A stretch of 32,199 bases of DNA from Deltaproteobacteria bacterium (GTDB taxonomy: Bacteria > Desulfobacterota > Desulfomonilia > UBA1062): NCBI GenBank assembly GCA_029552245.1, contig JAKPDW010000054.1:1-32199 (forward strand), written 5' to 3'. Each line of letters begins with the position of its first letter. Positions within the stretch are counted from its first letter, which is position 1. Both the position numbers and the translations under genes were made by a program. The notes beneath the pieces were generated by a model. The model worked only from the letters and a program-made list of their open reading frames with translations. It searched no databases and was not told the DNA's origin. Positions 10,370-13,178 of the stretch are shown here, in pieces.

Positions 10370-10765
10370 TCAGAACGCGCCCAGCTGGCACGGTGCTATC
10401 TTGATGCCGAGCGAGTCCGCGGCGTTGCCGACCTCCGCCCTGGCCAGGCCCATGGCGTCGGCGATCCTCCACAACTCGGCGCAGGCGACCCTGCCGCCTC
10501 GTGCTGCCGAGCGGATCGCGTCGAGGACCTCCTTTTCGACCTCCACCTTCCTGCCGAGGATCTTGTACGAGGATCTCCCCTTGCGGCCGTACCCGAACAG
10601 GCCGAGCTGGCACTGGTCGAGCTTGACGCCCATGTCCGTCGCCTCCCTGCCGACTTCCAAGGGGGCTACCCCGAGAGAGGCCGCTATGTAATGCGCGACA
10701 GCGCACTGCAGCTTGCCCCCGCCGGGGTTCCTCGCGATCATGTCCCTTATCCGTGCATCGCTCAT
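10370..10765 (-). CDS. Protein built of two cysteine-containing helical repeats, function unknown
   Basis: The ATG at 10765 follows GGAGAGAGG and gives 131 residues; a longer frame lacks such a site. Residues 21-57 and 95-131 align without a gap at an offset of 74. Both carry Cys-Ala at the start (C21, C95), then I-A, a Gly, E-V-G, A, a G-[VI]-K segment and end in CQLG-x-F (C52, C126). In both copies the two cysteines are 31 positions apart. The pattern of short helices with an x-E-V-G turn resembles a helix-turn-helix. The linker 58-75 is basic and glycine-rich. There is no signal or membrane segment. It might be a DNA-binding or metal-binding regulator, but I recognise no family. The acyl-CoA synthetase gene ends about 135 bases downstream on the plus-coordinate side and may be transcribed with it. 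Confidence 0.78.
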   Translation of the reverse strand: MSDARIRDMIARNPGGGKLQCAVAHYIAASLGVAPLEVGREATDMGVKLDQCQLGLFGYGRKGRSSYKILGRKVEVEKEVLDAIRSAARGGRVACAELWRIADAMGLARAEVGNAADSLGIKIAPCQLGAF

Positions 10766-10900
10766 GCCTCTCTCCTTCCACAGGGCCGCCCGGCCCATAG
10801 GCCACCGCACTCCCCGTTGGCCCACGCCGAGAACGGTCCTTCCCTCACCATCCGCACCCCCTTCACCGCGACCGCCTATCCCGGGCAACGACCATGTCCA

Positions 10901-13084
10901 TCATCGGGCGTTTTCGATGCCCTTTTCTGTGTCCCCTTCACCGAGCACCACGAGGGCGTCCGCCACGATCGGGGAGCCGTCCACCACGATGATGGGGTTC
11001 AGGTCGACCTCCGCTATGTGGGGAAAGTGCAGCGCGAGCCTTCCCAGGGCGACGAGGATGTTTGACAGCGCCACCCTGTCCACCGCCTTCATGCCCCTGA
11101 ACGGCCCGAGAAGCCTGGACGACCTGAGGCCGTCCATCATCCCGTGGGCGTCCGTGGCACTCAACGGGGCGAACCTCGACGAGATGTCCTCGAGCGCCTC
11201 CGCGAACACGCCGCCGAGCCCCAGGACCACGCACGGGGGAAAACCAGGGTGCCTGGTGACGCCGGCCATGAGCTCCCGTTCGCCGCGGAGCATCTCGGCG
11301 ACGATGAAGCCTGGCACGCCCGCCCTCTCGCTCATGGAGCGATACGCCCTTTCCAGTTCGTCCTCGCTGGCGATCCCGAGCCTCACGAGCCCGAGTTCGG
11401 TCTTGTGCCTGATCTCGGGTGCGCACGCCTTGAGCGCCACGGGGAACCCGATCGAACGTGCGGCCTCCCTGGCGGCCGCAAGAGTCGAGACGCGCACCTC
11501 GACGGGCGTGGGTATCCCGTAGGACCGGAGCAACGCCTTTGCGTCGTACTCGTCGAGGCCGGCGCCGCCTGCCCGCTTCACGATGGCCGTCGCCTCTTCG
11601 GGGGGGCTCCCGATGCGGCCCTGCCTGTCCACGGGCCGGTTCCTGATCTCCAGGTGCCTGAGGAACGCGCCCATGGCGCGTGCAGCCTTCTCGGGCGCGT
11701 CGAAGGTCGGTATGCGTCTCTCGTGGAAGGTGCGGACGCAGTGGTCCTCGAGGCCGAAGAACGAGGATATGAGCAGGGGCTTGCCGTGGGTGGAAGGCAT
11801 GGCCACGAGCCTGTCGAGCCCGATGCTCATCGCCTCGAAGAGCTGCTCCTTGGTCTCGTTCATGAATCTACTGACCGCCGGGTACAGGAGATCCAAGAAC
11901 CCCGTGTCCATGATGCCGTGGATGATGACGCCGTCGACCTCTTCCGACTCGAAGAGGATGCTCGGGATCTCCTCAGAGAGCACCTTCATGTCCATGTGGA
12001 ACGTGAGGTCGATGGGGTTTTTCGCGCTCGCGTGGCCGGGGATGAGCTCGGCGATCCGCTCCTTGAGCCCGGGCGAAAACTCGGGCACCTCGAGACCGAG
12101 CCTGTCGCACGTGTTCGCGATGGCCGTGCCCGGGCCGCCGGAGTTGGTGAGCACCGCGATGCGCCTGCCCTTCAGCCGGGGCTGGGTCGCGAGCGCGGAG
12201 CCGATCCTGTAGACGTCCTCTATGCTCTCCACCTGGATCACGCCGGCCTGCTCGAACAGGGCCTCGTAGAGGTGCGCCGGCCCCGCCATGGCGCCGGTGT
12301 GGCTCGCGCACGAGCGGGCCCCCGCCTCGGACCCTCCCACGTACTGCGCGACGATGGGCTTGTCGCGGCTCACCAAGGACGCGGTCTCGAGGAACCTCCC
12401 CACGTCCTTGATCCCCTCGATGTAGAGGCCTATCGCCTTCGTCCGCTCGTCCGCACCCAGGTACTCGATGCAGTCGACGATGTTGATGTCCGCCTCGTTC
12501 CCGACGCTGATCGCCTTGCTCAACGCCACGCCGTTCCTGTGGAGGTACGAGACCACCTGGGCCACGTACGTCCCGCTCTGGGAGGCGATGCCGAGCGCGC
12601 CGTCGAAGTCCTGGACAGGGCCCACCGTGATGTTCAGCCTGTTCGAGGTGTTCACGATGCCGAGGCAGTTCGGCCCGAGGAACCTGATCCCGTAGTGCCT
12701 CGCGCGCTCCACGAGGGTCTGCTCGAGCGACCGGCCGTCGTCACCCGTCTCGCGGAAACCCGCCGTCACGATGACCATCCGCTTCGTGCCGATCCTCCCG
12801 AAGGCCTCCACGAGCTCGAGGACGAGCCTGGTGGGAACGACGAGCACGGCGAGCTCCGGCGTCTTTGGGAGAGCGTCCACGCTCGGGTACGCCTTGAGCC
12901 CCAACACCTCGGGCTCGGTCGGGTGGACCGGCAGCACCTCTCCCGTGTACCCGCCCGTGACGAGGTTCAGGCACTGGATCGTGCCCATGGTGGTCAGGTT
13001 GTTGCTCGCGCCCACGAAGGCGATCGATGCCGGGTTCATCATCGTCTCGATGGGGTTGTCGTATGCACGGGTGGGAACGCTCAT
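10901..13084 (-). CDS. NDP-forming acyl-CoA synthetase (fused alpha-beta, acetate-CoA ligase type)
   Basis: The 727-residue protein would interconvert an acyl-CoA plus ADP and phosphate with the free acid plus ATP. An N-terminal CoA-binding domain (about 10-130, IAFVGASNNL) is followed by the succinyl-CoA-synthetase-like domains (FLGPNCLGI, IASQSGTYV) with the phosphorylated His262 in SHTGAMAG. An ATP-grasp domain occupies about 510-720 (DAKALLRSYGIPTP, APEIRHKTELG). The usual GGV after HKT/S-D reads LGL here, a mild deviation. The ATG at 13084 has AGAGGAGG nine bases upstream. In anaerobes this family makes ATP from acyl-CoA; the actual acid cannot be told from sequence. Confidence 0.9.
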   Translation of the reverse strand: MSVPTRAYDNPIETMMNPASIAFVGASNNLTTMGTIQCLNLVTGGYTGEVLPVHPTEPEVLGLKAYPSVDALPKTPELAVLVVPTRLVLELVEAFGRIGTKRMVIVTAGFRETGDDGRSLEQTLVERARHYGIRFLGPNCLGIVNTSNRLNITVGPVQDFDGALGIASQSGTYVAQVVSYLHRNGVALSKAISVGNEADINIVDCIEYLGADERTKAIGLYIEGIKDVGRFLETASLVSRDKPIVAQYVGGSEAGARSCASHTGAMAGPAHLYEALFEQAGVIQVESIEDVYRIGSALATQPRLKGRRIAVLTNSGGPGTAIANTCDRLGLEVPEFSPGLKERIAELIPGHASAKNPIDLTFHMDMKVLSEEIPSILFESEEVDGVIIHGIMDTGFLDLLYPAVSRFMNETKEQLFEAMSIGLDRLVAMPSTHGKPLLISSFFGLEDHCVRTFHERRIPTFDAPEKAARAMGAFLRHLEIRNRPVDRQGRIGSPPEEATAIVKRAGGAGLDEYDAKALLRSYGIPTPVEVRVSTLAAAREAARSIGFPVALKACAPEIRHKTELGLVRLGIASEDELERAYRSMSERAGVPGFIVAEMLRGERELMAGVTRHPGFPPCVVLGLGGVFAEALEDISSRFAPLSATDAHGMMDGLRSSRLLGPFRGMKAVDRVALSNILVALGRLALHFPHIAEVDLNPIIVVDGSPIVADALVVLGEGDTEKGIENAR

Positions 13085-13178
13085 CGCCTGGATCCTCCTC
13101 TGAACGGCGTCATCGTAGCACATGGCGCCGGCTCGTCCCGGGGGCACCCCCTCGGTCGTTCACCGGTCTCCCCCCAAA

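Follow-up and report, generated by a model that had tools for sequence, protein, structure and literature searches.

A small protein of two cysteine-paired units and its unnamed, widespread family: a putative metal site that may be shared between units

Cysteine ligands are joined to a helix-turn-helix (HTH)-type core in the Rrf2 family (IscR, SufR; PF02082), FeoC (PF09012) is a small HTH-like protein with several cysteines, and in the CoA-dehydratase activases and the nitrogenase iron protein a cluster is held by two cysteines from each of two subunits. Here we analysed a 131-residue protein built of two cysteine-paired units, encoded in a stretch of DNA of 32,199 nucleotides (hereafter the window). 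The window protein gave no match to FeoC at E values up to 10, and FeoC itself occurred in 2 of 30 genomes carrying the cysteine-paired family. Nor did the window protein give a Pfam match to Rrf2; a comparison with 27 Rrf2 sequences reached an hhalign probability of 5%, with the HTH segment alone aligned.

The gene occupies positions 10370–10765 of the reverse strand, stop included, its coding part running from an ATG at 10765 to 10373 and its stop codon lying at 10372–10370. A likely ribosome-binding site, GGAAGGAG, can be read just upstream of the ATG (10772–10779, reverse strand). Substitutions at codon positions 1, 2 and 3 numbered 22, 28 and 59 against the relative L031, 33, 30 and 75 against L039, and 38, 29 and 68 against L032. 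On this codon-position bias and the ribosome-binding site before the ATG, the open reading frame is a real gene; in its own genome the window protein gave a single match at E ≤ 10. From the internal repeat, a single-unit profile and structural models, the protein divides into an N-unit (residues 1–57; 10595–10765, with cysteine codons at 10703–10705 for C21 and 10610–10612 for C52), a linker (residues 58–74; 10544–10594, model confidence being low at residues 60–63) and a C-unit that ends in CQLGAF (residues 75–131; 10373–10543, with cysteine codons at 10481–10483 for C95 and 10388–10390 for C126), all on the reverse strand. The first-pass annotation had aligned residues 21–57 with 95–131 without gaps at an offset of 74, and this repeat is sound: 17 of those 37 residues are identical, and the alignment extends without gaps to residues 3–57 against 77–131 (21 of 55 identical) with a score of 102, which none of 5000 shuffles reached (mean 23.7, maximum 52). 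The offset of 74 is not general, however, since it ranges from 67 to 75 across 93 two-unit proteins and is 70 in 66 of them.

The window protein belongs to a widespread family, unnamed here by Pfam and NCBIfam, with the near-invariant signature C-x30-C-Q-L-G-x-F. Of 395 genomes sampled from the phylum, 186 gave a relative when searched with the window protein (E ≤ 0.01) and 188 gave a match to the single-unit profile (E ≤ 0.001). The nine named relatives are MAGs, eight of Deltaproteobacteria and one of Syntrophaceae. We chose 129 loci from among the search matches, a selection and not the full set (L031 and L145, both included, come from one genome, and L158, of 100 bases, was dropped); 93 encode two-unit proteins and 36 encode one-unit proteins of about 57 residues, a form short enough to be dropped by gene callers. 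Profile comparison related the N-units to the C-units and single units taken together with a probability of 99.8%. As counted by eye, the number of unit matches did not exceed two in 176 of the 188 positive genomes. A single gene per genome, in either form, thus looks usual, so the one- and two-unit forms may replace each other. Among the two-unit proteins we also observed an N-terminal extension resembling MTHxDxGxYAxKH, the strict pattern being present in 34 of 93 two-unit and none of 36 one-unit proteins and looser versions in more (for example L051:7983-8417:+, L060:8022-8480:- and L113:7993-8427:-); the window protein does not have it. A second two-unit type, with a conserved start like DFNDADRKKK...NPGNL, was seen by eye in six cases: L145:7908-8372:+, carried as a second gene by a genome from the same genus as the window, and L074, L075, L127, L129 and L147.

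That the protein had earlier been assigned to no family agrees with our searches. Pfam and NCBIfam yielded no convincing family match with either the window protein or 33 two-unit rows as queries, and PHROGs none with 132 unit rows (best E 0.0008 for one row, and 0.003 for the window unit). Two family alignments likewise found no convincing match among PDB sequences: the best E value was 0.38 with one and 0.023, to a designed repeat protein, with the other. No paper was returned by a full-text literature search for CQLGAF and CQLGCF, and the passages of PMC2859854 consulted did not bear on the cysteine-paired family. A plasmid search with one one-unit relative and a phage search with one two-unit relative gave no match, and three single-protein queries found no relative in viral contigs; a plasmid link of the window protein itself, seen at three places only with 28% identity and an E value of 0.5, was rejected.

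Conservation in the family centres on the Cys/CQLGxF site and not on the recognition helix. Both cysteines were kept in all 222 units of the 129 loci, although the search may have overlooked relatives that lack them and score poorly against that profile; the pair proposed as conserved in the first-pass annotation was therefore borne out, and no unit without it appeared. Q53 and G55 were each present in 219 and F57 in 220 of the 222 units, and CQLGxF formed the end of the protein, or lay one or two residues from it, in 128 of 129 proteins, the exception (L115) ending in CQLETF. Mean column entropy was 0.46 bits at positions 52–57, compared with 2.5 in helix 3 and 2.88 in helix 1, so that no other stretch of the unit approaches the tail in conservation. 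The further claim of exactly two cysteines per unit is correct for the window protein (positions 21, 52, 95 and 126) but breaks down in its relatives, where extra cysteines occur in one-unit proteins and in many C-units. About 77% of C-units carry one at position 42, absent from the window's C-unit. All 36 one-unit proteins have a third cysteine, at position 56 in 32 of them and at position 24 in the other four, and 7 of the 36 have cysteines at both 21 and 24 (CxxC). Because a third cysteine is always present, and the four proteins without Cys56 all have Cys24, the pattern suggests a ligand site.

AlphaFold2 gave pLDDT values of 80.4 for an alignment of 33 two-unit rows and 86.8 for one of 132 single units. 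In both models the unit runs helix-strand-helix-helix-strand, with C21 opening helix 2 directly after strand 1 and C52 coming after strand 2, and each unit is predicted to be a trihelical HTH-like module without a wing. The winged helix suggested at first is consequently retained in part: the models contain the HTH-like trihelical core, but in the unit model, in place of a hairpin wing, the third helix is followed by a single short strand (residues 48–50) and then the CQLGxF tail, and a true winged helix is not supported. In the unit model mean pLDDT was 60 at residues 51–57 as against 92 in the core, a low predicted order that fits a tail which becomes ordered on binding a ligand or partner. 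Foldseek returned no match at E ≤ 0.001 for either the two-unit or the unit model. Among the Foldseek candidates, VIA-align listed the L11 C-terminal domain (best Z 6.5), NuoE-type N-terminal domains (Z ~6) and homeodomains (Z ~5), which are practically tied and fall within the range of common arrangements; as all rows fell below Z 8, we claim no homology.

Gene neighbourhoods were read from gene calls made with a simple ORF picker, and many neighbour names were assigned by eye. In the window, an ADP-forming acyl-CoA synthetase-type gene lies upstream (10901–13147, reverse strand; Pfam ATP-grasp_5, Succ_CoA_lig and CoA_binding_2), 135 bases before the ATG, and is a possible operon partner. The same type of gene is next upstream in eight of the nine named-relative loci (L036 being the exception) and in L093 and L095, which belong to another taxonomic family; the gap is 9–12 bases in five loci and 338 in L039. 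The reverse strand of the window between 7334 and 15958 also carries an M24 peptidase, EF-P, a biotin/lipoyl carrier and a lipoate ligase-like gene, together with, on the downstream side, a beta-lactamase-fold hydrolase and a PAS/GAF histidine kinase.

Neighbour genes vary by lineage. In 11 loci the next gene upstream is an ACT-domain gene, and some of these loci have AMP-binding acyl-CoA ligase genes farther out. Seventeen of the 36 one-unit loci, spread over four taxonomic families, have a radical SAM gene following the family gene and then a ~1394-aa CoA-enzyme activase-type gene; the distance to the radical SAM gene is 1–18 bases in 13 of the 17 and -22, 80, 113 and 316 in the others. The ~1394-aa gene has BadF/BadG, DUF2229 and HGD-D domains, and a compact run of this kind is found, for instance, at L077:8039-13353:+. 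Single lineages place the family gene near IscU and cysteine desulfurase (L045), SufC-SufB (L122), a NUBPL-type ATPase (L146) or FdhD (L097, L137). Separately, a MoaE-type gene adjoins the two-unit gene in convergent orientation in L084, L092, L096, L100, L103, L116, L117 and L048 (identified by Pfam in L116 only), and IspG (GcpE) is near the two-unit gene in L044, L050, L058, L059, L066, L091, L102, L107, L119 and L120, adjoining and divergent in nine of them, with prolyl-tRNA synthetase beyond it in most of the ten (Pfam on one example each).

IscU lay within 10 kb of a family gene in at least 9 of 80 genomes where 1.03 were expected, and SUFBD in 2 of 80 where 0.23 were expected, these near counts being read by eye from coordinates with rounded genome sizes, and IscU having been chosen after the loci had been viewed. 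A control family, tRNA-synt_2b, was within 10 kb in 6 of 40 genomes against 0.84 expected (counted in the same way, and assuming a common genome size of 3.5 Mb); in the same 40 genomes IscU was near in 7, among the matches listed, and the control in 6. Since the control was enriched almost as much, inherited gene order inflates such counts, and we rejected the Fe-S neighbourhood as proof. The Fe-S and Mo-cofactor genes found nearby in several lineages are therefore only a hint as to function.

We consider a metal or Fe-S centre common to two units a better explanation than a classical DNA-binding sensor, and for the putative cysteine site metal, Fe-S or redox chemistry is plausible. Each unit would be a trihelical HTH-like module in which an invariant cysteine lies at the end of each of two short strands. 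If one unit contributes only two or three thiols, and so half a site, two units would jointly hold one metal centre, either through homodimerisation of the 57-aa form or between both halves of the 131-aa form. The likeliest centre would be an Fe-S cluster, around which the CQLGxF tail would become ordered, and the protein would then be an accessory factor (for cluster delivery, insertion or sensing) for anaerobic metalloenzymes, not an enzyme. A metal centre common to two units is the simplest reading of the paired cysteines, the third cysteine of the one-unit proteins, the near-invariant but poorly predicted tail and the apparently interchangeable forms. It has to be set against the finding that the neighbour in the window's lineage is an acyl-CoA synthetase and not an Fe-S gene, and we put forward the whole of it, from metal and sharing to accessory role, tentatively, as a real but far from secure possibility. 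A structural disulfide appears less likely, because the hosts are presumed to be anaerobic. Small modules often require a metal for stability, and a structural zinc (or similar) site could stabilise a small protein-protein adaptor whose docking surface is the CQLGxF tail. The near invariance and usual C-terminal position of the tail, and the metal need of small modules, are consistent with this, yet the low order of the tail and the variable third cysteine fit it no better than a cluster site, and we regard it as unlikely.

A metal-, Fe-S- or redox-responsive regulator, in which the HTH units bind DNA and the cysteine pairs switch binding as in IscR or SufR, would account for the modelled fold and draws on weak, scattered matches of single members to HTH families (GerE, MarR, HTH_10, HTH_1) and on insignificant fold matches that include homeodomains, Cbp1 and MarR-type proteins; the variability of the recognition helix could also mean differing targets. 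Helix 3, however, is near neutral or acidic and not basic, with a mean net charge of -1.75 in N-units, +0.45 in C-units and -0.17 in single units against +1.56 in the Rrf2 helix region. The wingless unit model, the lineage-dependent neighbours and the lack of any operator recognisable by eye in upstream stretches of six groups point the same way, which leaves this explanation rather doubtful. Alternatively, one invariant cysteine near a flexible C-terminus could serve a thiol or sulfur relay, as a persulfide carrier or disulfide former in the style of DsrC/TusE. In L045, L060 and L114 the gene immediately upstream is that of a cysteine desulfurase, and in L137 the family gene sits between FdhE-like and FdhD genes; both settings would suit such a role, but neighbours of this kind occur in few of the 129 loci and the CxxC arrangement in few of the one-unit proteins, making a relay quite improbable. 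If, in keeping with the shared metal centre that we favour, the cysteine pairs do share a cluster, then the protein binding it would be a very small one, in which separate dimer and fused form provide a built-in comparison, and it would be an overlooked part of anaerobic metalloenzyme biology. A bolder version, speculative and on balance unlikely, is that the family represents a new type of Fe-S carrier or sensor of minimal size, in which the cysteine pair of a 57-aa HTH-like module binds a cluster only on pairing with a second module, as a homodimer or a duplicated single-chain pseudo-dimer, and that in roughly half of the phylum as sampled it serves low-potential enzymes, among them radical SAM, CoA-activase and formate dehydrogenase.

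Among described domains, DUF7645 (PF24655) was matched weakly by seven of the 33 members searched (lowest E 7.4e-5); membership was rejected, as the curated cut-off is 27 bits, two one-unit members scored 14.0 and 13.3, and none of 21 genomes had a match above the cut-off. A similar helix arrangement is found in the N-terminal helical domain of NuoE and its [2Fe-2S] thioredoxin-like relatives (PF01257; Z ~6 with 8x9v_O), which also gave the highest profile score of those tried, 28% over 29 columns and not significant, and a PF01257 match in 1 of 33 members (E 0.022). Unlike NuoE, the cysteine-paired unit has no thioredoxin-like domain following it. The best structural match of the unit model was to the C-terminal RNA-binding domain of L11 (PF00298; 1mms_B, Z 6.5, rmsd 2.2 over 49 residues, 22% identity). 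There was no sequence-profile link to L11 (hhalign probability 1.5% with 27 sequences), and the L11 domains compared are the more basic, with a mean net charge of +3.7. In the L11 domain two strands form a parallel ribbon, and a ribbon of this kind in the cysteine-paired unit would bring C21 and C52 together.
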